From [Leptolyngbya] sp. PCC 7376 (GTDB taxonomy: Bacteria > Cyanobacteriota > Cyanobacteriia > Cyanobacteriales > MRBY01), in assembly GCF_000316605.1 (NCBI RefSeq), contig NC_019683.1, positions 124,001-188,000 on the forward strand: 64,000 nt of DNA, given 5' to 3'. The translations under genes were made by a program, and so were the position numbers. Positions 40,121 to 57,575 of the stretch are shown piece after piece (position 1 is the stretch's first letter; every line of letters starts with the position of its first letter). The notes beneath the pieces were generated by a model, which made no database searches, was not told the DNA's origin, and saw nothing but the letters and a program-made list of their open reading frames with translations.

Positions 40121-40528
40121 CTAGCGCTCAATAGACCATTGTGTGTCGAAATCTTTTAGGTAATAAAGCGCAAAGCAAGCCGCTAACATTGGCCAAGCTG
40201 TGAAGAATAAAAGGTTTGGCCCATCAGCATAGGGCGTGAGGTAAATCTTAAAACTAGAAAATGTTGAGATAGCATGCATAAACAGCACGAGAAGATAACT
40301 GATTTTCTTCTGAAATCCCGCGACAAAAGCCAAGATAATCAGTAATTGAACCGCACCGATTATATAAACAGGAGTATTCCCTAAACCACCAATAAAATAA
40401 AATTTCTCAAAAACCGCTGCACCATGTTCTGGACGAAAGAATTTGTCTAATGTCCACATCAATAGAACGAGAAAAACACTGATGCGAAGGAAAAAGAGAG
40501 CTAATGGTAAACGCTTTTCTAAAGTCAT
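40121..40528 (-). CDS. DoxX-like membrane protein at the end of the arsenosugar operon
   Basis: The 135-residue protein has four hydrophobic helices (about 10-28, 48-70, 75-97 and 105-125) and the pattern FLRISVFLVLLMWTLDKF near 13 of DoxX-like proteins. Its start is 30 bp after arsS ends, on the same strand, so it is very probably part of the arsM-arsS operon. DoxX relatives are linked to quinone-coupled redox or to sulfur and arsenic metabolism in other bacteria. The role in arsenosugar formation is not known. Confidence 0.65.
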   Translation of the reverse strand: MTLEKRLPLALFFLRISVFLVLLMWTLDKFFRPEHGAAVFEKFYFIGGLGNTPVYIIGAVQLLIILAFVAGFQKKISYLLVLFMHAISTFSSFKIYLTPYADGPNLLFFTAWPMLAACFALYYLKDFDTQWSIER

Positions 40529-40558
40529 GGTTTTAGTAGGATTAGGGAAAGTTTAGGA

Positions 40559-41557
40559 TTAAACAAGTGCGCCACCACAGCTAGAGCCGCTGCCCGCTGT
40601 ACAGCCGTAGCAGTAAGGTTTTGTTGCAACGAGGTCGATGAGATCTAATGTGTTCGCTGCAAGTAATTTGCTGACAGTGAGGCGATCGCCAGATTTGGTG
40701 CGGGCGGGTAGATTTTCCATCTGATTAAAATCACAATCGAAAATATTGCCGAGATAGTCGATGGAGAGTTGGTTTCGACACATCAAATTAGTAACGGTAG
40801 ACTCATTATGGTGCGTTTCTAAAAATCTCAGATAGGGCAAATATAAGTCTTTTGTTTCTAAATAATTTCTTACTCGTCCAATGGGCAAATTGGTGATGGT
40901 GAATAAATGGTTGAATTTAATATCAAAGTGCTCAGCGAGATATTTTTTGTAGTCTTTTTCTAGGGCAACTTGATCGGGTGTTAAAGAAAAATCAGCATTG
41001 CGAGGAACCGGTGGATTATAGACGAGATCTAAATTTAGATTTGGATCAGTACCATAGCCTAAGGCATTAAGTTTTTGGATCGCGGTGATGGAGTCTTGGT
41101 AAACGCCTGCCCCCCGTTGTTTATCGACATTATCTTCGAGGTAACAAGGTAAAGACGCTACCACTCGTACTTTGTGCTCCGCAAAATACTCGGGTAAATC
41201 CTCGTAGCCTTCAACAAAAAAAATGGTTAGGTTTGAGCGGACAATTACTTCCTTTCCGTAGGCGATCGCCGTGGCGACAAGCTCCCGAAAACCATAGTTC
41301 ATCTCCGGTGCGCCACCCGTTAAATCCACTGTTTTTATCTGAGGAAAACGCCGCAACAGTTCGAGCAACTGATCACAAATTTCTGGAGACAATTCCTCTG
41401 TTCGTTTGGGGCCAGCCTCTACATGGCAATGGATACAGGCGAGATTGCACTTTTTGCCGAGGTTGATCTGGAGGGTTGTGATCGGTTGCTTTGTGAGGGG
41501 CTGAGAAATCTTGTTTTCGAAGGGAGTGACAGTGGTTTTTGTCGGAGTCTGAACCAT
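40559..41557 (-). CDS. arsS: Arsenosugar biosynthesis radical SAM protein ArsS-like
   Basis: This 332-residue radical SAM enzyme has the cluster motif CNLACIHC (Cys37, Cys41, Cys44), a VDLTGGAPEMNYGFRELV block near 85 and a C-terminal Cys-rich motif (YCYGCTAGSGSSCGG) likely to bind a second cluster. This is the layout of ArsS, which adds the 5'-deoxyadenosyl group to dimethylarsinous acid to give the arsenosugar precursor. It follows arsM by ~100 bp in the same direction, the order found in other cyanobacteria. Older annotation names it a selenobiotic or SAM-domain protein. Confidence 0.85.
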   Translation of the reverse strand: MVQTPTKTTVTPFENKISQPLTKQPITTLQINLGKKCNLACIHCHVEAGPKRTEELSPEICDQLLELLRRFPQIKTVDLTGGAPEMNYGFRELVATAIAYGKEVIVRSNLTIFFVEGYEDLPEYFAEHKVRVVASLPCYLEDNVDKQRGAGVYQDSITAIQKLNALGYGTDPNLNLDLVYNPPVPRNADFSLTPDQVALEKDYKKYLAEHFDIKFNHLFTITNLPIGRVRNYLETKDLYLPYLRFLETHHNESTVTNLMCRNQLSIDYLGNIFDCDFNQMENLPARTKSGDRLTVSKLLAANTLDLIDLVATKPYCYGCTAGSGSSCGGALV

Positions 41558-41659
41558 GGCGATCGCCTAATTTTTAAAAGGTGGTGAATAAAAAAGGGGC
41601 ATTGTTGAGTGACCCTTTTAGAAGTTTTAGTAGATGATTTTTCGTATTCTATATGGCCT

Positions 41660-42847
41660 TTAACAACAGCTATCAGTCGAACAAGAAGCCGCTCCATCCG
41701 CTAAATCAGTCACGTTATAATCCTGACCCTTGCTTTCTTTCGGGTGACGGCGAGCATCCACACGACAATTGAAAGTAGCTGCATTTTCTAGCTCAATATT
41801 GTCGTAGGGCAATACCGAAATAAATTGACCCGCATAAGGGCTATTTTCGTTGGTCAATAAATTAAAAGTTTTGTCGCAAACCGCCATTCTTTCGCCGCGA
41901 TAATAGGTGTGGCCATCGTCATCTTTAATCTCTTTCCAAGGGCCTTTATAAATCACCGCTTGATTTCGTTCTAGGCAAACACCCTCTTTTCCTTTGTAGG
42001 CACGCACTGTCATAGAGCGAAATTCGATGCCATCAATCGTTTGCCAAGGCTCTTTCTCAAAACTGAGAATTTCAATGCCATGGAAACCCGCATCCGCAAA
42101 CATTTCAAGGAATTCTGACTCTAAAAATGCTCCAGAAATACAACCACTCCACAACTCTGGATCATTCATGATCTTGGCAGTGGGCACTTCGTCGCAAACA
42201 ATGTCAGAAATGACCGCTCGGCCACCTTTTTTGAGTACGCGGTAAATTTCTTGAAATAGCTGTTTTTTATCACTCGGTTTGACGAGATTAAGCACACAAT
42301 TGGAGATCACGAGATCCACGCTATCGTCAGCAATGAGAGGCGTTTTTTCGCGTAACCGTTCGGCTTCAGCTTCGTAATTTGCTAACTGCTCGACAGACGT
42401 GATGGGATTCTCTGTGAACCATGTCTGCAATGCGTCTAGAGGTAATTTGAGATCTTGGATTTTACCTTTAACAAACTCTGTATTGGTAAAGCCAATTTTT
42501 CCACCAATATCCTGCTGATATTTGCGGGCGAGGGTGAGCATCACATCGTTAAAGTCAACCCCGATAACTTTACCTGTGGCGCCAACTTTCTGGGCAACCA
42601 TATAGCAATTTTTGCCTGCACCAGAGCCTAAATCAACGACCACATCACCTACTTCGGCATAACGAGTGGGGTCGCCACAACCATAGTCCTTCGTTAAAAT
42701 TTCGTCGGGAATAACGTCGAGGTACTGGACATCTTGATAATCGGTAGGACAGCAGAGGCTGGGTTCATGTTCTTGGGCACCTGCTTGGTAACGGCTGAGA
42801 ACTTCATTCTCGATATCGTAGGTGGGGGTTGTGCTCTGATCTAGCAT
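41660..42847 (-). CDS. arsM: Arsenite S-adenosylmethionine methyltransferase ArsM-like
   Basis: The ATG at 42847 (MLDQSTTPTYDIENEVLSRY) gives 395 residues, preferred over 429 by family pattern. SAM-binding motifs are VVDLGSGAGKNCYMV near 90 and VIGVDFNDVM. Cys residues lie where ArsM binds arsenite: near SLCCPTDYQ (about 47-48), SNCVLNLV and GCISGAFLE. A ~100-residue C-terminal addition with PYDNIELENAATFNCRVDAR ends CSTDSCC, a Cys-rich tail likely to bind metal or arsenic. The enzyme methylates As(III) to mono- and dimethyl forms, the first step of the arsenosugar path with arsS next to it. Confidence 0.85.
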   Translation of the reverse strand: MLDQSTTPTYDIENEVLSRYQAGAQEHEPSLCCPTDYQDVQYLDVIPDEILTKDYGCGDPTRYAEVGDVVVDLGSGAGKNCYMVAQKVGATGKVIGVDFNDVMLTLARKYQQDIGGKIGFTNTEFVKGKIQDLKLPLDALQTWFTENPITSVEQLANYEAEAERLREKTPLIADDSVDLVISNCVLNLVKPSDKKQLFQEIYRVLKKGGRAVISDIVCDEVPTAKIMNDPELWSGCISGAFLESEFLEMFADAGFHGIEILSFEKEPWQTIDGIEFRSMTVRAYKGKEGVCLERNQAVIYKGPWKEIKDDDGHTYYRGERMAVCDKTFNLLTNENSPYAGQFISVLPYDNIELENAATFNCRVDARRHPKESKGQDYNVTDLADGAASCSTDSCC

Positions 42848-43285
42848 AGATTTCGTCGCTATCTCTTCGATCTCTAATTTGGTTTGAAACGTGTTGATCA
42901 TCTTAAGGGCGATCGCTGAGATTCTGCTGAGATTCTGAACAAAATTCAAGGCTTTTTAGTGAATAATCTTGAAGCCAGCCCATCTAAACTATGTGGAAGA
43001 TTTGCTCATGGCTGATTCGATATGTTTGATTGGCTGGTTGAGTTAGAGCAACGATGAAAAGCGTTTAAGCTTGAGGATCATGAATCCTTTCGTTTGGCTG
43101 AAATTGATGCAATAGAGGCAATCGCCCTGAGAGAAAGCATGATTGAGCAGAGGGTGAAAATGCCCTCTTATCATGATGTCGATTGGTCTGAGTGGCGATC
43201 GCCATAACGGCTCTATTTATAAAGAAGTGATGGGACAAACCGGACATCCTTTTACAATGAAGAATGGAAATTTTGTATTATCACC
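42848..43285. other. Intergenic region between arsM and ribD with a possible broken short ORF
   Basis: About 440 bp. A plus-strand frame at 43022-43207 begins MFDWLVELEQR and, past one TGA at 43055-43057, goes on with AFKLEDHESFRLAEIDAIEA and ends in SYHDVDWSEWRSP. It reads like a small protein with a nonsense codon, but its family is unknown, so I list it only as possible. The rest must carry the arsM and ribD promoters; no ArsR-type operator was recognised. Confidence 0.35.
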
Positions 43286-46473: not shown

Positions 46474-46759
46474 TTAAAAGTGGATGAATATATTGGTATC
46501 CGTAGCGAGCTAATCCAAGAGTAAAAGAACTATAACGAGGATTAGAGCGCCGTTGTTTCGAAGCAAAGCATACAAGATAAGATTTCCAACAGCTATCGTG
46601 AAGAAGATTGTCTGTAATAGGGGCTAGGCTATAAGCCATCATGACCAGTAGAAATATAGCCGAAAATCTGGGTAGGTTGACCCGACTAGACTCAAGATTG
46701 TAGCCACCAGTTTTACAATCTTTGAACATCGTTTCAATAACCCAGCGTTGTCGATAAAG
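46474..46759 (-). pseudogene. IS4-family transposase, C-terminal fragment
   Basis: The minus-strand frame reads LYRQRWVIETMFKDCKTGGY, then NLESSRV and LLVMMAYSLA, the C-terminal signature of IS4-type transposases, with the catalytic Glu in RQRWVIE. The upstream part ends where the IS5-family element begins at 46760, and the 3' end runs into the MITE-like repeat near 46473. It was cut by both. Confidence 0.65.
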
Positions 46760-46784
46760 AGTTGACCTCTTGCAAAAGGTTGTA

Positions 46785-47589
46785 GCAATTCAAAATTGTA
46801 GAGACCAGCAATGAGATTAAGTCTTAATCCCCATCTCCGACGGCGGTTACGATATCGACTGGATAATATACGAAATCTTTTGAGCATTCTGAATACCATC
46901 TCAATGATGATTCTTTGAGCTGCTAAGAGCTGATTCTCCTGTTTCTGCTCCGCACCTTTAGGCTTCTTGTGAGGAGTGTGACTCCGCTGATGTCGCTTGT
47001 GTAGACCTTGATATCCAGCGTCGGCAAGGCAGAGTTGTCCCTGCTGAAAATGCACTCTACTCTTTTTGAGTAGTTTGAAGTCATGGGTGCTACCTTTCTC
47101 ACAGTCACAACAGATAATCTGTGCCCACTGCCAAGCAATAACTATTTGAGCTTTAAGGGAATGATGCTTCTTTTTCCCTGAGTAGTAAAGATGTTGTTTT
47201 TTTGGGCTTTTCAATCGCCTGTTCTGTGGCATCCATACCACTACTGTTAGAGATAACTCTTCTGAACCATGGAGCTGTTTCATGCCGGGTCAGTGGCAAT
47301 CGGTTTCTTTGATGAGTGTATTCTCTGTTTTTTGCACCATGCGACAAACTGTTGATTCATGAATGCTCCATGATTGAGCGATAGGAAAATAAGTGCGATA
47401 TTCCCTCGGATATTCCAAGGTGAGGAGTAACTGATTTTCCAGGGATAAAACACTGGGACGACCGGGTTTTTGCTTTGCTTTAGCTTCTGCTAGGACTTCT
47501 ACCAGACGATTGAAAGTCTGAAGTTTAACTCCACAAGCTCTCCTGAATTGTTCTGTCGATAAATGTTGGAGCTGTTCGTAAGTTGACAT
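46785..47589 (-). pseudogene. IS5-family transposase, broken by frameshifts
   Basis: The N-terminal half begins at 47589 with MSTYEQLQHLSTEQFRRACG and a helix-turn-helix (WSIHESTVCRMVQKTENTLI), then stops at 47290. The DDE half resumes in other frames: GMDATEQAIEKPKK is in one and QHLYYSGKKKHHSLKAQIVI in another, separated by an A7 run near 47199. Later blocks CLADAGYQGL and RIIIEMVFRMLKRFRIL fit an IS5-type DDE transposase. At least two indels are needed to repair the frame, so it is probably dead. The 3' end is read through the left terminal repeat. Confidence 0.7.
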
Positions 47590-48549
47590 TTTTATCGCTA
47601 TGGCTCTGTTACTTTCCTCTTTTTTACCTAACGTGAGTTCTGGATAAGGAATGATAGGTCTAATCAAGCTGTAAAGAAGGTTTTTGGGTTGATGGCAGTA
47701 AGCAATCAGCCCACACAGCAAGTTCACACAAAAGTTTGTGGGACTGCGATGTCGGGAATGTTCAATCTGTGAGATGTTCTTCAGTTGGTCAATAACTGTC
47801 TCAATCAAAGCCCGCTTACGAGCAAAAAGTTTATCTTGATAAACCATCAAATGATGCTTCATATTTCGACGAGGTTTAGCCATTAGGGTCACCTCATGTT
47901 CCTCTTGAAGATGCTGGGCTAAAGATTGTGAGACATAGCCTTTATCGGCAAAGACTTTACCCCATAAGTCTTGCCATAACTCCACTATAGGTTGGCGGTC
48001 ATCGGTATTTCCGGGCGTCACTTGGACGTTGAGTAATTCTCCTCGCTCATTGATGACCAGGTGTAGTTTGAAGCCGAAGAACCATCCCACCGAAGTCTTG
48101 CCCCTTGCCGCGCAACCTTCAAAAACACGATGTTGAGAGATACGGCGATTATGGCAAACCTTGATGCTGGTGGCATCAATGAAGCTAATACCAGTGCATT
48201 GTCCGAAGCATCGTCGCAGATATGTACAGAGAGGAATCAAGCTCGAAGGTATCCATGTCACAAAGCGTTGATAGCTCACAGCTAGAGGAAACTCTTGTTG
48301 CCAATCGCATTTCACCTTGATGAGATAGAAATGCTTGAAATTTCGATAGTGAGATTGATGGAAAGCAATGAGAATAGTCATCACCTCACTCAGACTGAAG
48401 CTTCTCTGACGGCGACGGTATTTTTTGCCAGAGCTGAGTAACGCTTGATGCCATAAGGGTTCAAAGACTTGGCAGAAATCATCAACATGGCAAAACAGAG
48501 CCTCTAGACTGGACATGGGAGAAAGCCGTGGATTCGTTACAACTTCCAC
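47290..48549 (-). CDS. IS982-family transposase, reading on into the IS5-type first ORF
   Basis: The first ~300 residues form an IS982-type transposase: SLEALFCHVDDFCQVFEPLW at the start, FIDATSIKV near 125, GWFFGFKLHLVINERGELL near 152, FADKGYVS near 197 and RALIETVIDQLKN near 243, giving the D-D-E residues. There is no stop codon before the element end; the frame crosses the left terminal repeat (YPELTLGK) and continues in frame into the IS5 ORF from MSTYEQL, stopping at 47290. The result is a 419-residue chance fusion of two transposase parts. The IS982 part is probably active; the tail likely adds nothing. Confidence 0.78.
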   Translation of the reverse strand: MEVVTNPRLSPMSSLEALFCHVDDFCQVFEPLWHQALLSSGKKYRRRQRSFSLSEVMTILIAFHQSHYRNFKHFYLIKVKCDWQQEFPLAVSYQRFVTWIPSSLIPLCTYLRRCFGQCTGISFIDATSIKVCHNRRISQHRVFEGCAARGKTSVGWFFGFKLHLVINERGELLNVQVTPGNTDDRQPIVELWQDLWGKVFADKGYVSQSLAQHLQEEHEVTLMAKPRRNMKHHLMVYQDKLFARKRALIETVIDQLKNISQIEHSRHRSPTNFCVNLLCGLIAYCHQPKNLLYSLIRPIIPYPELTLGKKEESNRAIAIKMSTYEQLQHLSTEQFRRACGVKLQTFNRLVEVLAEAKAKQKPGRPSVLSLENQLLLTLEYPREYRTYFPIAQSWSIHESTVCRMVQKTENTLIKETDCH

Positions 48550-48592
48550 GATATGGGCTTTCTCCTTTTCTTTCCTTATCCAGAACTCACGT
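47631..48592 (-). mobile_element. IS982-family insertion sequence, complete, nested in the IS5-family element
   Basis: The element is 962 bp with perfect 21-bp terminal repeats that start ACGTGAGTTCTGGATAAG (47631-47651 and complement at 48572-48592). A 6-bp target duplication, TACCTA, flanks it (47625-47630 and 48593-48598), which shows direct insertion into the 5' region of the IS5-family transposase. It has one full-length transposase frame and could be active. Confidence 0.88.
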
Positions 48593-48626
48593 TACCTACT
48601 CTCACCCCTTTTGCAAGAGGTCAACT

Positions 48627-49417
48627 GTAATACCAAGGCAGTGATGGAAGAAATCAAAGCATGGCAGCATCGTCCTCTGGAGGAGATATATCCGATATTG
48701 TGGCTAGATGGCATGAGAATAAAAATCAGAGAGGAAGGACGAGTCACGAATCAGACTCTCTATCTAGCACTGGGAGTGAAGCAGTCCGGTCACAAGGAGG
48801 TCTTAGGAATGTGGCTATCCTCGGGAGGAGAGGGGGCAAAATTTTGGTTGTCAGTGCTGAATGAAATCCACCATCGGGGGGTCGAACATATCTGCATAGC
48901 TTGTGTGGATGGGTTGAAGGGATTTCCCGCTGCCATTGAAGCGGTGTTCCCAAAAACGAGAGTGCAATTATGTATCGTTCATCTGATACGAAATAGCCTG
49001 AAATTCGTTTCTTGGAAAGACCGTAAGTCCGTGGTGTCAGACCTCAAGCCCATTTATCCGGCCGCCACAGTTGCCGAGGCAGAATCTGCCTTAACTGCTT
49101 TTGCGGAGCGTTGGGACGGCATCTACCCCACTATTTCCCAGACATGGCTGAATCATTGGGAAAACATCATTCCATTATTTGATTATCCAGCTCCCATCCG
49201 TCGCATCATTTACACCACTAATGCCATCGAAGCAGTCAATCGCTCTTTGGGCAAGGTGTGAAAAACCAAGAGCATGTTCCCCCATGCAGATGCTGCCCTG
49301 AAATTGCTGTATTTAGCCCTGAAGAATTTGATGAAGAGATGGACGATACCAATACTCCATTGGAAAAGAGCTTTGAGCTATTTTGCCATTGATCATCCAG
49401 AGTATTTTCTTCACTAA
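48627..49417 (+). pseudogene. IS256-family (mutator type) transposase, truncated and with a nonsense codon
   Basis: The plus-strand frame carries IS256 landmarks: WLDGMRIKI (first Asp), CVDGLKGFPAAIEAVFPKT (second Asp), LCIVHLIRNSLKFVSWKDRK and TTNAIEAVNRSLGKV (Glu). The 5' half is missing because the IS5 end replaces it. A TGA at 49259-49261 interrupts the frame where related proteins continue (KV-stop-KTKSMFP), then the normal end follows (ALKLLYLALKNLMKRWT) to TAA at 49415. Two lesions make it inactive. Confidence 0.8.
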
Positions 49418-49732: not shown

Positions 49733-52700
49733 TTAGACAATATCTAAATCCTCACCCCATCTTTGCAACAACTGTTGATAAATTTCCTGCAATGGTTCAC
49801 TCCAGTCACCACGAACTTTTTGTCGGAAAAGGCGAGCTGTTGAGTACCAAGGACTATCATTTCGCTCAATCTGCCATCGCCAATCTGCATTAAATGGCAG
49901 CAATATCCACACAGGTTTGCCCATCGCTCCTGCTAAATGTGCCACAGCTGTATCGACAGTAATAACTAAATCTAGTTGATGAACCACACAAGCCGTATCG
50001 TAAAAATCGTTAAGGCGATTGCCTAAATCAAAGACCGTCTGATTATCGACCCATTTATTAATTTGCGCGGCATCTTCACCAACCTGTAAGCTCCAACAAG
50101 ATAGGCATTGATCTGTAAATAATCCTTGCCAATTTTCCATTATTAATTCTAAAGACAGAGATTTATTGGCATACATACCAGTGTTTTGACGTCCACTTGC
50201 CCATACTAAACCTATCTTTTTACGCTTAGAGTGTTGTTCCAGTCTTAATGTATTTGGTATCGAATCAAAAATGCTCAGATAAGAGTCTATGTAAGGAATA
50301 CCTGTTTCAAGAGGAGCAAGAATACGAGGTAAACTCATTAATGGGATATGTTTTTTATATTGCTCGAAATCATTGTTCGCATCGTTTTGATCAAAAATTT
50401 CAACATCAATAGAGAGACATTTTTCAAAGAGTTTGATGAGCGGCAAAAATGTGGCAATCTTCACATCTAATCCTTGCTTTAAAAGTAGCTCAATATATCG
50501 AATAAACTGGATCGAATCACCCATACCCTGTTCACCCCAGACCAATAAAGGTTGATTGATAAACTCTCCATTCCACATTTTGGTATTGAGAAATCTAGGT
50601 TCTGTGGGATTAAAGCGCCATTCATACTCAATCCATCCTCTAGAAAATTCACCTCTTAAAAGTAAAATCAAACCTAAATTATGGTGACTCTTTACATCAT
50701 TAGGATCAATAGTAATCACCCGTTCATAAGCCTCGATAGCATCTTGATATCGTCCCAAATCTTGTAAAACCCGCCCTAAATTATACTGAGCTGCGAGATT
50801 TCCAGGTTCCGTTTCCACAATCTTTTGATAGAGTTCACGAGCTTGCTCAAAATCAGATAAGCGGTGAAAAGAATTTGCCAGATTATAGAGAGAACAATTA
50901 TCTTGAGAATTCAGTTTTACTGCCTTTTGAAAGTATTGAACTGCTTCATCTTCTTTATTTTGTTCTGATAATATATTTCCTAATTGATTAGGAATATTTG
51001 GATTCTCAGGTTCCAATAGCTGAAATTTTTCTAGATAACCAATTGCTTCATCAAACCGTTTTAATGAGGTCAAGGCAATAGCAAGATTGTTTAAAGTCCC
51101 CCCACTTTCTGGATTGAGTTCAAGAACTCTTTGATAAGCTTCCACTGCTCGACTATATTTTTGTTCCAGCAGAAGTACATTCCCTAAATTATAGAAGAGA
51201 TCTGGATTATATGGCTCTATTTGAGTCGCACGCAGAAAAAGTTCTTGAGAAGCGATGTAGTCTTTCTCTTGTAGATAAGCATTACCTAATGCATTGATTA
51301 AAATCAAGTTCTCTGGAGATATATCTAGTCCTTCTAGATAATATTTAATCGCCTCTTCAATATTTTCATTAGCGAGGCAGTCATTACCAAGGGTCAAATA
51401 TTTACTGGCAGTATTAACTTGCGAAGTATCGAATGAAGATTTGATAGATTTTTCTGAAGGTGTAAGAGAGAAAGATTGAAGAAGCTCTTGGTACACTTCA
51501 TGCAAAAGATTTGGCCAATCACCATGATGACCTTGGCGAAAAAGTTTAGCAGTAGGATACCAGGGACTATCTAATCGTTCTAACTGCCAACGCCAATCTG
51601 CTTTCATAGGCAGTAAAATCCAGAGAGGTTTACCCATTGCACCAGCTAAATGAGCAACAGCTGTATCAACAGTGATCACTAAATCCAACTGTTTCATTAG
51701 ACAAGCTGTGTCATAGAAATCGGTAATTTTTGGACTTAGGTCAAAAACATTTTCGTAATTCAAAAAAGGCTTGATTTTCTGACTATCTTGACCAACTTGC
51801 AAACTCCAGAACGAAATTTCTTGTGAATTTAGTAATGGATTAAAAACATCAAAGAAAAGTTTTGCTGTCGTTGCACGGTTAGCATAGGTCCTATTGACAG
51901 CACCACTTGCCCAGACGATACCTACCTTTAATCCTTTATTATTTGGCAATTCCAAATGTTGAGGAATATCTTCGTTGATCTGAAGATACGATTCTATTGG
52001 TAAAGTTTCATTGTTTGCATTAAATATATGAGGCAAACTCGTGATCGCAATATGCTGACGATATTCTCCTAAACCACCTTGGTTAATAGGAACAACATCA
52101 ATCTCTTTTTCTGTCTTCAAACATTTTGCAAACAGTTTGACTAGAGGTTTTGCTGCTGCAATCACAATCCGTTCAACAGATTCTTCTAAAGCAGTAATAA
52201 AACGAATGAATTGAATTGAATCTCCAAAGCCTTGTTCAGTCCAGAGTAAGATTTCTGATTTTGCCAGAGTCTCTCCTTGCCACATGGGGTGAGAGCTTGG
52301 CATTTGCCAACCCTTTAATCTCCATTCATATTCTTCCCAACCCTCTTTAAAGTTCAGTGTTTGAAGTAAAGCCATTCCCAAATTACAGTGGGTTTCTACA
52401 TTATTTGGCTCAAGAGCGAGTACTTGGCGATAGGCTTCAATTGCTTCTAGATATCGATTTTCCATCTCTAATGAAAAACCTAGGTTATTTAATGCACTAG
52501 TATGGTGAGAGTTTTGTTTAATAATACGATTAAATACATCTATAGCATCTAAATATCTACTTTGCTTCTGTAAAGCACAACCATAGTTATACTGAAAATC
52601 AATATTTCCAGGTGCAAGCTGAACGATTTCAAGGTAGGTATCAACAGCTTCTTCTAAATAGTCTGCCTGTAGTAGTGTATTAGCTAAATTATAGGTTAGA

Positions 52701-55700
52701 TCTAATTGTTTAGGTGCAAATTTTAAGGCTTGTCGAAATGCGATGATCGCCTCATCGTATTTTTCGTGAGCTTGAAAAAAATTCCCAAAATTATTATAGA
52801 GATTTAAATCACTTATTTCTATCTTAACTAACTGCTTAAAAATTTCCTGAGCAAGTTCAATATCATTAACTTCATTAATCAATTCTGCTAATAGTAAGCA
52901 AAGTTGAGTGTTATGAGGAAACAAATTCAACCCTTCTTGGTAAACTTTAATGGCAGCCTGTATATCTCCAGATTGTTTTAATGCATCACCGGATAATAAG
53001 TAACCATGCATTACCTCAGGATAAAGTTCAACAACTTGATTAAAATATTTTAGTGACTCTGAATATTCTTCTCGACTTGCAAAAGCTTCACCTAATTTGA
53101 TCAAAGATTCTTGATTTTTAGGCTGACATTCCAAAGCTTTCTGTAAGTAGATGATCGCCCCATCAATACGATTTACCTCTAAAAAAGCTCCTCCTAAATT
53201 CTGAAAGAAGGATGCTTCTTGATTTGCTGCAAGAATTAATAGATCTAAATGCTGATTTTCGAATACTGAGTTGGCAAAACTCTCTAGGAGCAACTCTCCA
53301 CATAACTGTTCATAAATAGCATCAAAGACAGTTTGCCAATCGCCATGTTCAGGCTGACGAAAAAGTTGCATAGTCGGATACCAAGGACTATCTTTCCTCT
53401 CTAGCATCCAGCGCCAATCAGGCAAATAAGGCAGCATTAACCAGACTGGTTTTCCCAAAGCGCCAGCTAAGTGAGCTACGGCTGTATCGATCGTAATAAT
53501 CAAATCCAACTGTTCAATGATACAGGCCGTATCATAAAAATCAGTCAGAATTGGACTGACATCAAAAATACCTTTATTTCCCAGCCAAGGCTCAATATAA
53601 GCGGAGTCTTCGCCAACCTGCAAACTCCAGAAAGTGATTTGTTCTTCTTCAAGTAGATCCTGCTGAGTTCTGAGAAAAACATCTAACTCAATGGATTTAT
53701 TTTTGTACATTGAAGTGTTACTGACGCTACTTCCCCAAACAATGCCTATTTTCTTATTTTTTGTTTTTGGCAATGTGAGTTGTGGTGCAATAAACTGTGG
53801 TGCTTTGAGATAGGGATTCTGATCAGGAATTGAAGCTGAGGTTGTTTTGAAAATTCTTGCCAAACTCATCAAAGAAGCATGAGCAGTATATTGCTGTATA
53901 TCCTTAATTTCCAATTGGTCAATTACAGAAATAGACGAATCCAAACACTCTTGAAATAGCTTTACCAGAGGTGATCGCGTTGAGACTGTTACTTTTATCT
54001 CTAAATCCTTACAGATGGAAATGTAACGAGCAAATTGGATTGTGTCACCAAAACCTTGTTCACTCCAGAGTAAAAGGTGAGTATTTTTATCGACTGCACC
54101 TGTCCACATCGGTGAACCTAACAGTTTACAACTGGAGTAATTCGGATCGAATCGCCATTCATAGGCTTCCCATCCTTCTGCATATTGCTCACTCAGTAAT
54201 AAAACCCAGCTTAAATTGAAATGTGCACTCTGATTTTCTGGATCTTTCTCTAATACTTCTCGATAATATTGGATTGCCTCGGTAATTTCTTTATCTTGCT
54301 GGAGTGCATTAGCTAAATTGTATTTAAAGTCTATAGTATCGGGGCTTAATTGAATTGCCTTACGGAAATGGGCGATCGCCTCATCAAAGTTTTGTTCTGC
54401 TTGATAAGCGTTACCAAGATGATTCCATGCTTCCGCATCTTCAGGTGCAAAATCTAGAATAGCTCGGAAAGCAGATCTTGCCTCTGTATAAGCATTGATA
54501 CCTAAATATGAATGACCTAAATTATTTAAAATCCCTCTATCTTTCGGGTTGATTTCTAGTCCAGTCTCATAGGTAGCGATCGCCTCTTGATAGTTACTAT
54601 CTAATAAATAAGTATTCCCGAGATTAAAATATAAAGCTGTCGCGTCGGGTCTTAATTCGAGAGCTTCCTCAAAAACGGCAACAGCTTCACTAAATTGCTG
54701 ATTATTCTGTAAAACTGTTCCCAGCTTATTAAGCAGATCAATATTATGGGGTTCCTGTTTTAATGCTTGTCGATACTCCCAAATAGCACCAATTAAGTTT
54801 CCTTGACTTTGATGAACATCACCCTTTTCAATATGGCTTTGAGCAGAATTCAAAATATCTTTTATGACTTTCAATGGTAGATTTTCAATAGCCTGATTAT
54901 CCAGAGTTTGTGCAATAATTTCAGGCAGATTAACTTCACCAGAAACTAATTTCTGAAGCTGGGCACTAATATCTTCAAAAACACTCTGCCAATCATCAAA
55001 GTCAGGCTGCCTAAATAATTGAACAGTGGGATACCAAGGACTATCTGTTCGCTCCAATAACCAACGCCAATCTGAAACTTTTGGCAGCAAAATCCAAGTT
55101 AGTTTGCCCATAGCTCCAGCCAAGTGGGCAACAGCAGTATCTACCGAAATCACTAAATCCAACTGTGAAATAATTGCAGCAGTATCAGAAAAATCACCAA
55201 TCTTTTCACTTAAATCAATAATATTTTCGCCATCTGACCAATCCCGAATCTGCTTTGCATCATCACCCACTTGCAAGCTATAAAAGGCGACTTTCTCTGA
55301 AGCAATTACATCTCCTTGAGCCTCGATAAACTCATCGATATTGATCGATTTGGAAGCGTACCACCTTGTTACAAGATTGCCGCTCGACCAAACCAAGCCA
55401 ATTTTTATTTTTTTAGTATTGCCAAGCTGCAGTTTTTGTGTGGTTTCTGGTGGAGCAGATATATAGGGAATATTGTTAGGAGTAGAAGCCGAATCCGTCT
55501 GAAAAAGCCTGGGCAAACTCATCAAAGATGTGTGATGCTGAAATTGACTTAAGGTCGCACTATTTTGATCTATAACCTCAATATCTTCGGGCAAAGAATC
55601 TCTAAAAAGCTTCACTAATAAAGGTCTTGTTGCCACTGTAACCTTGATACCTTTTGACTTTACTAGCAGTGCGTAACGGACAAACTGAATCGCATCTCCG

Positions 55701-56701
55701 AAGCCCTGCTCACTCCACAGCAATAAGGGCTCTTGTGCTGAAAGATTTTCTCCCTGCCATACATTTTGATTGAGTCCAAGGGGAATACAGGTTGGTTGTT
55801 TTAAAAAACGCCATTCATGTTCTTGCCACCCTTCCGCAAATTCACCATTAAGCAACAGCAATAAGGCAAGATTAAGGTGATATTCAGGATTGTTTTTTTC
55901 TGTTTGAATTGCTTGTCTATAGCATTGAATTGCCGAATCAAATTCGCCATATTCTTTGAGAACATTAGCGTAATTATTTAAGAGTCCCGGATGTCTTGGA
56001 TGAGTCTCTAAAATTTTTTTGTAATGTTGAATAGCATCTTTATAGTCGCCTTTTTCATGCAAAACCATCCCTACATGTATTTTGGCATCAAGGCGATTTG
56101 GATCTATTGCTAAGACTTTCTTAAAAGTGGCGATCGCCTGTTCATATTGATCAAGACCAAGCAGAGCGTGACCTAAATTATTATGGAAGTTGGCGTTCCG
56201 AGGCTCAAGCTTTAAAGCGATATTATATGCTTCTACGGCAAGCTGATATTGATTATTCAGCAGATACGCATTACCGATGTTAAAGTGAGCATCAACATAG
56301 TTTTCATCAAGTTGAATAGCTCTTTGAAATGCCTCAATCGCCTGTGGCATATCGCCTAAGGCTTGCCAATTATTACCAAGGAAAGAATAATATTTAGCTT
56401 CCTTTGAATTGAGTTCAATCGCCGTTTTCAGCGCTTTTATTGCTAGGGCTGGCTGTGAATCCTGGCCGAGTGATGCACCGTATAAAAAATGAAACTCGCT
56501 ATTATTGGGTTGACTGCGAACAAGCTGCTCGAAGGTCTGAGTCGCTCGTTTAAAATCGTGCTGATTATATTGAGCAATTCCTTGATTGCAGAGGGCCGAA
56601 ATTTGTTGTGAGCTCGCCCCCATATTGGCAGATTTTGGCGTGAAAGCTTTGGACTTAGCTTGATTTCGAGAACGAGATTTCTTTTTACGGGATTTGCTCA
56701 T
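49733..56701 (-). CDS. Giant protein of four tandem TPR plus GT9-like glycosyltransferase modules
   Basis: The protein has 2322 residues with no signal peptide or membrane helix; its first ~25 residues are very basic (SKSRKKKSRSRNQ). Four modules follow, each of a TPR array (FxxAIxxYxxALxxxP repeats) then WEEYEWRF, a block like LLLWSEQGFGDAIQFVRY (near residues 335, 885, 1492 and 2060) and LVITVDTAVAHLAGAMGKP with a closing SPWYPTxxLFRQ (near 527, 1075, 1683 and 2254). The C-terminal halves resemble GT9/heptosyltransferase-type folds attached to TPRs as in bacterial O-GlcNAc-transferase-like proteins. Modules are 550-610 residues. Single-module relatives are common; four in one chain is unusual. 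It lies beside the IS cluster and has no close operon partner. Acceptor and donor are unknown. Confidence 0.8.
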   Translation of the reverse strand: MSKSRKKKSRSRNQAKSKAFTPKSANMGASSQQISALCNQGIAQYNQHDFKRATQTFEQLVRSQPNNSEFHFLYGASLGQDSQPALAIKALKTAIELNSKEAKYYSFLGNNWQALGDMPQAIEAFQRAIQLDENYVDAHFNIGNAYLLNNQYQLAVEAYNIALKLEPRNANFHNNLGHALLGLDQYEQAIATFKKVLAIDPNRLDAKIHVGMVLHEKGDYKDAIQHYKKILETHPRHPGLLNNYANVLKEYGEFDSAIQCYRQAIQTEKNNPEYHLNLALLLLLNGEFAEGWQEHEWRFLKQPTCIPLGLNQNVWQGENLSAQEPLLLWSEQGFGDAIQFVRYALLVKSKGIKVTVATRPLLVKLFRDSLPEDIEVIDQNSATLSQFQHHTSLMSLPRLFQTDSASTPNNIPYISAPPETTQKLQLGNTKKIKIGLVWSSGNLVTRWYASKSINIDEFIEAQGDVIASEKVAFYSLQVGDDAKQIRDWSDGENIIDLSEKIGDFSDTAAIISQLDLVISVDTAVAHLAGAMGKLTWILLPKVSDWRWLLERTDSPWYPTVQLFRQPDFDDWQSVFEDISAQLQKLVSGEVNLPEIIAQTLDNQAIENLPLKVIKDILNSAQSHIEKGDVHQSQGNLIGAIWEYRQALKQEPHNIDLLNKLGTVLQNNQQFSEAVAVFEEALELRPDATALYFNLGNTYLLDSNYQEAIATYETGLEINPKDRGILNNLGHSYLGINAYTEARSAFRAILDFAPEDAEAWNHLGNAYQAEQNFDEAIAHFRKAIQLSPDTIDFKYNLANALQQDKEITEAIQYYREVLEKDPENQSAHFNLSWVLLLSEQYAEGWEAYEWRFDPNYSSCKLLGSPMWTGAVDKNTHLLLWSEQGFGDTIQFARYISICKDLEIKVTVSTRSPLVKLFQECLDSSISVIDQLEIKDIQQYTAHASLMSLARIFKTTSASIPDQNPYLKAPQFIAPQLTLPKTKNKKIGIVWGSSVSNTSMYKNKSIELDVFLRTQQDLLEEEQITFWSLQVGEDSAYIEPWLGNKGIFDVSPILTDFYDTACIIEQLDLIITIDTAVAHLAGALGKPVWLMLPYLPDWRWMLERKDSPWYPTMQLFRQPEHGDWQTVFDAIYEQLCGELLLESFANSVFENQHLDLLILAANQEASFFQNLGGAFLEVNRIDGAIIYLQKALECQPKNQESLIKLGEAFASREEYSESLKYFNQVVELYPEVMHGYLLSGDALKQSGDIQAAIKVYQEGLNLFPHNTQLCLLLAELINEVNDIELAQEIFKQLVKIEISDLNLYNNFGNFFQAHEKYDEAIIAFRQALKFAPKQLDLTYNLANTLLQADYLEEAVDTYLEIVQLAPGNIDFQYNYGCALQKQSRYLDAIDVFNRIIKQNSHHTSALNNLGFSLEMENRYLEAIEAYRQVLALEPNNVETHCNLGMALLQTLNFKEGWEEYEWRLKGWQMPSSHPMWQGETLAKSEILLWTEQGFGDSIQFIRFITALEESVERIVIAAAKPLVKLFAKCLKTEKEIDVVPINQGGLGEYRQHIAITSLPHIFNANNETLPIESYLQINEDIPQHLELPNNKGLKVGIVWASGAVNRTYANRATTAKLFFDVFNPLLNSQEISFWSLQVGQDSQKIKPFLNYENVFDLSPKITDFYDTACLMKQLDLVITVDTAVAHLAGAMGKPLWILLPMKADWRWQLERLDSPWYPTAKLFRQGHHGDWPNLLHEVYQELLQSFSLTPSEKSIKSSFDTSQVNTASKYLTLGNDCLANENIEEAIKYYLEGLDISPENLILINALGNAYLQEKDYIASQELFLRATQIEPYNPDLFYNLGNVLLLEQKYSRAVEAYQRVLELNPESGGTLNNLAIALTSLKRFDEAIGYLEKFQLLEPENPNIPNQLGNILSEQNKEDEAVQYFQKAVKLNSQDNCSLYNLANSFHRLSDFEQARELYQKIVETEPGNLAAQYNLGRVLQDLGRYQDAIEAYERVITIDPNDVKSHHNLGLILLLRGEFSRGWIEYEWRFNPTEPRFLNTKMWNGEFINQPLLVWGEQGMGDSIQFIRYIELLLKQGLDVKIATFLPLIKLFEKCLSIDVEIFDQNDANNDFEQYKKHIPLMSLPRILAPLETGIPYIDSYLSIFDSIPNTLRLEQHSKRKKIGLVWASGRQNTGMYANKSLSLELIMENWQGLFTDQCLSCWSLQVGEDAAQINKWVDNQTVFDLGNRLNDFYDTACVVHQLDLVITVDTAVAHLAGAMGKPVWILLPFNADWRWQIERNDSPWYSTARLFRQKVRGDWSEPLQEIYQQLLQRWGEDLDIV

Positions 56702-56891: not shown

Positions 56892-57536
56892 TTAGCCGCG
56901 AGATTGGATTACGTAGCCACACTGATGTTCGCCTTCATTAATCCATTGCGTGCGTTCCACTTTGCAATCGGGCAAAATTGCCTCAAACATTTCGAGCTCA
57001 TTCCCACAAACAACAGGAAAGGACTCAGCAACTTCGGCGATCGCACAATGATGTTCCATCAAGAAAAAACCTTGTCGGCCATGCTCTTCCGCAGGTTTAA
57101 TTTCAGCCATATAACCTTCAGCCTGTCGTAACCCAACTAATTTTTTTAACCGCTGCGCCAATGTTCCATCTCCGAGGCGATCGCGGTACTCTTGAGCCTT
57201 TTTTTGCCACTGCCTACGCAAAATTATTTCGACTTGCTCTTCCCCAGCCGTTTCCACCACCGCATCCAGAAAAGACACCGCAAAATCCCCATGGCGATTG
57301 GGAAAGCGATCGCGGCCTGCTCGACTTAACCCGTAGAAAAAATTTGGTCGTCCCTTACCTGCTCGCTGCGCCTTATGCTCAATCAACCCCTCAGACTCCA
57401 AGTCCTTAAGATGACGTCGTACTGCCTGGGGGCTAATCTGTAGCGACTCCGCCAGTTGCACAGCCTTCACTTGACCATGCTTTAATAAATGGTTCAGAAT
57501 ATCTTGCTTAGTTGAACGAGTTTCGGAAATAGTCAT
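56892..57536 (-). CDS. sufR: SufR, [4Fe-4S] repressor of the suf operon
   Basis: The ATG at 57536 gives 214 residues. A winged helix-turn-helix lies in residues 1-80 (ILNHLLKHGQVKAVQLAESL and QISPQAVRRHLKDLESEGLI), and Cys164, Cys177, Cys191 and Cys206 lie in the C-terminal part, with the spacing known for SufR cluster ligands. In cyanobacteria SufR with its cluster represses sufBCDS and itself; loss of the cluster derepresses under iron limitation or oxidative stress. It is divergent from sufB with two CAAC-N6-GTTG sites between them. Confidence 0.92.
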   Translation of the reverse strand: MTISETRSTKQDILNHLLKHGQVKAVQLAESLQISPQAVRRHLKDLESEGLIEHKAQRAGKGRPNFFYGLSRAGRDRFPNRHGDFAVSFLDAVVETAGEEQVEIILRRQWQKKAQEYRDRLGDGTLAQRLKKLVGLRQAEGYMAEIKPAEEHGRQGFFLMEHHCAIAEVAESFPVVCGNELEMFEAILPDCKVERTQWINEGEHQCGYVIQSRG

Positions 57537-57575
57537 AGATCCAGCGATCAGCAAAATAGATTTCAGTAGGTTTGA

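Follow-up and report, generated by a model that had tools for sequence, protein, structure and literature searches.

A four-module tetratricopeptide repeat–glycosyltransferase chain in [Leptolyngbya] sp. PCC 7376, a candidate protein O-glycosyltransferase

Multi-domain glycosyltransferases are usually formed by two enzymes fused in one chain. The closest described system in terms of layout is FlmG of Caulobacter crescentus, a cytoplasmic protein of 596 aa in which N-terminal tetratricopeptide repeats (TPRs) bind flagellin and set the acceptor specificity, while the C-terminal domain is a GT-B enzyme that uses pseudaminic acid as the donor (PMC7591256). The same order of TPRs and GT-B domain is found four times in the protein described here, whereas FlmG contains a single module; the two are compared here by the layout of TPRs and glycosyltransferase (GT). 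A second system, TibC, heptosylates an autotransporter protein and groups many catalytic sites on a repetitive surface-protein acceptor, since its 12-subunit ring provides twelve linked sites that decorate the repetitive autotransporter (PMC4358343). TibC shares the heptosyltransferase-type GT-B fold with the protein analysed here (Z 15.3 against GT domain 4), but it is a one-domain enzyme with a beta-barrel and an iron finger, devoid of TPRs, and its multivalency arises by oligomerisation instead of tandem fusion (PMC4358343).

Other comparable proteins include the heptosyltransferases WaaC and WaaF (GT9, PF01075), the best structural matches (Z 17–18), which have the GxGD and D-T/S-x-x-x-H motif regions in common with the modules; however, their identity to them is only 11–14%, PF01075 covers just 30–41 residues per module, and WaaC and WaaF lack TPRs and act on LPS. 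OGT and SPINDLY (GT41 and related) also place a TPR superhelix before a protein-acting GT-B domain, and the TPR part of the present protein aligns to both by sequence, although they have one module and belong to another GT-B family, GT41 genes being separate neighbours of some relatives. Finally, the same TPR + GT module occurs in many phyla in proteins annotated as "tetratricopeptide repeat-containing glycosyltransferase family protein", e.g., on an Azospirillum plasmid; these differ in being mostly single-module, 450–900 aa long and annotated without function.

Reading frame, modules and predicted fold

The window (the whole stretch of 64,000 nucleotides that was analysed) contains, at positions 49733–56701 on the minus strand, a frame of 2322 aa that starts with ATG and has no internal stop, while the plus strand across this interval contains many stops. 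Since the source genome is a single contig of 5,125,950 bases, 99.99% complete, in which the 2322-aa frame is matched without an internal stop, the frame is unlikely to have arisen by the mere misjoining of separate genes. Pfam searches identified TPR families in approximately 20–25 stretches of the protein and Glyco_transf_9 in four. The TPR arrays rest on Pfam and on a custom-built repeat profile, which also served to count the repeats, and the GT-B domains on motifs and alignment. From the N-terminus, all on the minus strand, these are TPR array 1 (residues 35–281, positions 55859–56599, about 7 repeats) and GT-B domain 1 (residues 282–591, 54929–55858); TPR array 2 (residues 620–832, 54206–54844, about 6–7 repeats, of which the profile counts about 6), also seen in a structural model, and GT-B domain 2 (residues 833–1142, 53276–54205); TPR array 3 (residues 1160–1444, 52370–53224, about 8–9 repeats) and GT-B domain 3 (residues 1445–1749, 51455–52369); and TPR array 4 (residues 1765–2011, 50669–51409, about 7–8 repeats) and GT-B domain 4 (residues 2012–2319, 49745–50668).

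Each module carries the same series of motifs. W-x-E-x-EWR lies at residues 292, 1455 and 2023, with the variant WEAYEWR in module 2; EQGxGDxIQF lies at residues 331, 881, 1489 and 2057 (spacings of 550, 608 and 568), and DTAVAHLAGAxGK at residues 521, 1072, 1679 and 2250 (spacings of 551, 607 and 571), module 1 having GKL in place of GKP. The Asp of GxGD, which in view of the fold alignment and of the general features of these enzymes would be the equivalent of the catalytic Asp of WaaC, is invariant in all 171 domains compared and kept in all four modules, as are the D, T and H of DTAVAH and the DWRW motif. In module 3, an R occupies the position held by K in the other three, R being the commoner residue of the family there. 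The initial annotation had proposed a single gene of 2322 residues with four TPR and motif modules, which holds, with motif spacings that agree within a few residues and a minus-strand orientation that it did not state; the assembly error that it had raised as an alternative was checked against the uninterrupted frame and the single-contig genome.

Structure prediction for GT domain 4, modelled from an alignment of 96 domains, confirmed a heptosyltransferase-like GT-B fold with two Rossmann-like halves (pLDDT 91.2, pTM 0.91). The best solved match of the model is WaaF (1psw; Z 17.8, 251 aligned residues, rmsd 3.5), followed by 3tov, a GT9 protein of Veillonella (Z 17.5), and WaaC with ADP (Z 17.2). 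All four named matches, including TibC, cover 241–254 residues at 10–14% identity, and families missing from such fold-match lists provide no evidence of absence. Regarding the features of the bacterial autotransporter heptosyltransferases (BAHT, the family of TibC), TPRs stand where the barrel would be, the GT is about 300 aa long, and no barrel is present in the model of GT domain 4. In a two-module model that extends from the tail of TPR array 1 through the whole of GT domain 2 (pLDDT 90, pTM 0.59, linker under 50), GT domain 2 again matched 3tov and WaaC, whereas its TPRs matched OGT-type and designed TPRs. The modules are thus each predicted with confidence but loosely placed with respect to each other, i.e., as beads on a string.

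The assignment to a family is less direct. PF01075 matches 30–41 of its 247 positions in each module, near the cut-off, and a full-length match to this profile (CAZy GT9) was not found in any of them, while an ordinary 328-aa GT9 protein encoded at 3.87 Mb in the same genome matches over 237 positions. Therefore, the domain represents a sister family, GT9-like rather than textbook GT9. Moreover, WaaC is hardly reached by the family profile at the sequence level (E 0.17), and thus the link to WaaC rests on fold and motif. The GT9-like domain of the initial annotation consequently stands as a heptosyltransferase-type GT-B fold, which structure prediction recovered, while its GT9 membership is only approximate.

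Age and distribution of the tandem arrangement

The four GT modules share 43–51% protein identity and 54–58% DNA identity. Their third-position identity is 39–46%, dN is about 0.5, and dS is 1.8–2.1 or beyond estimation, so that synonymous change between them is near or past saturation and the amplification is old, in line with the old or diverging amplification of non-identical copies suggested initially. No exact DNA repeat within the gene exceeds 18 nt, and when modules are compared in 60-nt windows, the best window of any pair shows 77–85% identity. These values, together with the DNA identity and dS, rule out recent duplication or gene conversion. Hence, the near-identical blocks between modules that had been reported correspond to conserved motifs and not to recent copies, recent growth by recombination finds no support, and nothing links the neighbouring insertion sequences, to which a role had been ascribed, to the growth of the gene.

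In the tree, the four modules form one clade with the three of a congener's protein (SH-aLRT 99), which indicates that the expansion in this lineage preceded, at least partly, the split of the two species. Module 4 pairs with module 3 of the congener (support 90); identities between modules of the two proteins are 42–50% in all pairs, and only this pair is recovered in the tree.

The survey comprised 142 frames carrying the domain, 127 of which are single-module, so that the expectation that such domains usually occur once is borne out. Ten frames in nine genomes, including this gene, have at least three TPR + GT modules. The congener's protein (L119:6594-13904) has three modules in 2437 aa and carries GT4-type and FkbM methyltransferase domains at its C-terminus; two genomes of another family encode five modules each; a genome of the same class contains giant adjacent genes of four and seven modules on the same strand (G081:C1:380211-401812, L172–L174); three further frames have four, at least five and three modules; and a Telmatospirillum metagenome-assembled genome (MAG) encodes ten modules in a frame of 5379 aa (L013:9998-26134), with flagellar hook and flagellin-type genes before it and two further single-module genes after it. 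Cyanobacteria besides the congener have frames of 3–7 modules, and at least one strong domain match was found in 57 of the 146 genomes of the phylum sample. The ten Telmatospirillum modules group with the two genes that flank them in a clade of support 100, and the modules of the five-module pair in another; these separate clades imply several independent expansions. Furthermore, the modules of the five-module pair are orthologous by position and each of the five is under purifying selection (dN/dS 0.15–0.29), which means that no module is decaying there.

The database check thus weakens the novelty initially attached to a four-module chain, given that proteins of three to ten modules exist in several lineages. 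The tandem-array form of TPR-linked heptosyltransferase-like GTs is more widely spread than had been assumed and, as far as the literature was searched, undescribed: our searches found no account of such arrays, in cyanobacteria or elsewhere. Single TPR-GT relatives are also encoded by cyanophages and other phages (MW015081, MW202512 and ON615601; 24–26% identity), the model of one of them giving a TM of 0.77.

The locus and the neighbourhoods of relatives

The gene has a GC content of 37.9%, compared with 43.5% for the window, and a GC3 of 0.29 versus 0.40–0.46 in four neighbouring housekeeping genes. Insertion-sequence transposases (DDE_Tnp_4, DDE_Tnp_1_3 and Mutator) occupy positions 46639–49261 on its 3' side, and 190 bp upstream of it a gene for a SufR-like regulator (56892–57542) is likewise read on the minus strand. 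Nested insertion is suggested among the transposases by a 419-aa frame in which a DDE_Tnp_1_3 transposase runs into the HTH of a second element, and by the incomplete Mutator transposase. The border with sufR is not common to the congeners: in all five, the gene is absent there and the border genes differ among them, and at E 1e-40 only one of the five gives any match. The gene looks like an acquired or mobile AT-rich orphan. No surface-protein gene adjoins it, its neighbours being insertion sequences and sufR; there is likewise no adjacent flagellin gene and no flagellar context at the locus, and scans for promoters and terminators around the gene yielded nothing above chance. Elsewhere in the window (40121–42949), genes for DoxX-like, radical SAM/DUF3641 (ArsS-like) and methyltransferase (ArsM-like) proteins stand in a row that resembles an arsenosugar cluster.

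Relatives of the gene repeatedly adjoin genes of exported surface proteins. Next to the ten-module gene, the flagellin-type gene is accompanied by flgK, flgE-like and flgD genes, and flagellin neighbours occur at four further loci (L015, L017, L037 and L048). An autotransporter gene adjoins a relative in L087 and likely in L044, cyanobacterial homologues in L133 and L138 have RTX proteins 1864 and 2594 aa long beside them, with RTX motifs also in L137, and a YadA-anchor gene lies upstream of the congener's three-module protein. On an Arcobacter plasmid (CP146529.1; L161:1-18772), the TPR-GT gene is grouped with a 25.7-kb gene and genes for a SapC family protein, an FkbM methyltransferase and type I secretion, and the Azospirillum plasmid homologues have a 20-kb Ig-like gene and GT2, GT4 and FkbM genes alongside. 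In one set of 112 near neighbours, Flagellin_N occurred in 4 cases and GT41 in 8, while a second set of 94 had 8 cases of sulfotransferases; all were counted without a matched background rate, so that the bearing of these neighbourhoods on the acceptor is suggestive only. Moreover, the multi-module gene of several cyanobacteria lies among housekeeping genes, and some relatives sit in gene groups of the polysaccharide type, which would suit a glycan acceptor.

Two candidate acceptors were considered individually. YadA genes are present in congeners with and without TPR-GT genes, which weakens a YadA autotransporter as the cognate acceptor and means that its adjacency may be due to chance. For an RTX protein, presence and absence across the genus are not clean, since RTX genes also occur in a congener that lacks the enzyme. 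Two other neighbourhoods are of note: in a Burkholderiaceae MAG, a TPR-GT gene is adjoined by a 1321-aa flagellin (Flagellin_N and Flagellin_C with a long middle; L079:4421-8383), and a small cyanobacterial genome carries a pair of almost identical type IV pilin-like genes within a group of TPR-GT, GT2/GT4 and methyltransferase genes (L176:7361-8473).

Proposed function and competing readings

With moderate confidence, and by analogy with FlmG and TibC, we regard the protein as a protein O-glycosyltransferase, soluble and cytoplasmic, whose four TPR + GT-B modules would act before export. Each TPR array would hold a stretch of the acceptor polypeptide, most likely a large, exported and repetitive surface protein, e.g., an RTX adhesin. 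The GT-B domain that follows each array would then transfer a sugar from a nucleotide-sugar onto Ser or Thr side chains. A protein, and not a lipid or glycan, is the presumed acceptor of presumably active catalytic domains in the cytoplasm. The donor prediction identified no sugar; an rfaE-like kinase domain in the genome matches below its cut-off, so that a supply of ADP-heptose is no more than possible. Four catalytic sites linked in a flexible chain would make active sites locally more concentrated along a long acceptor, and their number may reflect a repeated acceptor, avidity or separate specificities, the first and last of which the initial annotation had also put forward. More speculatively, such proteins might form a class of catalytic arrays on one chain, whose module count, from 1 to 10, would rise and fall independently from lineage to lineage in step with the length of a giant exported acceptor or with its number of repeats. 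Each would then be a covalent equivalent of the TibC ring and glycosylate many sites per binding event; we consider this extension improbable.

The main rival is an assembly line whose modules differ in donor or linkage specificity and build one oligosaccharide stepwise on a protein or lipid, with the GT4 domain and methyltransferase of related chains finishing it. The C-terminal Glycos_transf_1 and FkbM domains of the congener's protein and the GT4-type domain that ends L120 would suit such a scheme, as would the one-to-one conservation of modules by position in G006 and G037 and the divergence of the modules here at about half of their residues. However, modules cluster within their own protein or with those of the congener and not in position-specific clades across lineages, their core motifs are the same in all four, and their number varies freely between lineages, which makes this reading unlikely.

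Also unlikely is an envelope polysaccharide or LPS enzyme, i.e., a heptosyltransferase-like multi-GT acting on a glycan with the TPRs as a mere scaffold. It would agree with WaaF and WaaC as the nearest folds and with the relatives found among GT2, GT4 and methyltransferase genes, but TPR arrays are peptide-binding modules, a like layout binds flagellin directly in FlmG, the genes next to several relatives are those of flagellins, autotransporters or RTX proteins, and the genome encodes a separate, ordinary GT9 protein. A degenerate array, in which some or all GT-B domains persist as non-catalytic binding modules of a scaffold, is highly improbable: the GKP deviation of module 1, the R of module 3 and the dN between modules could be read in this way, but the core residues are kept in all four modules, R is the prevailing family residue, and selection maintains every module of the five-module relative.

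The candidate protein O-glycosyltransferase thus belongs to a group in which one TPR-GT unit, instead of two different enzymes, has been multiplied on a single chain, several times independently and up to ten times, and has been kept under selection where this is measurable. These arrays offer a direct test of whether extra catalytic sites divide the labour or increase speed and avidity where the acceptor is repetitive. Moreover, they hint at an unexplored cytoplasmic route for the glycosylation of surface proteins in cyanobacteria and other bacteria.
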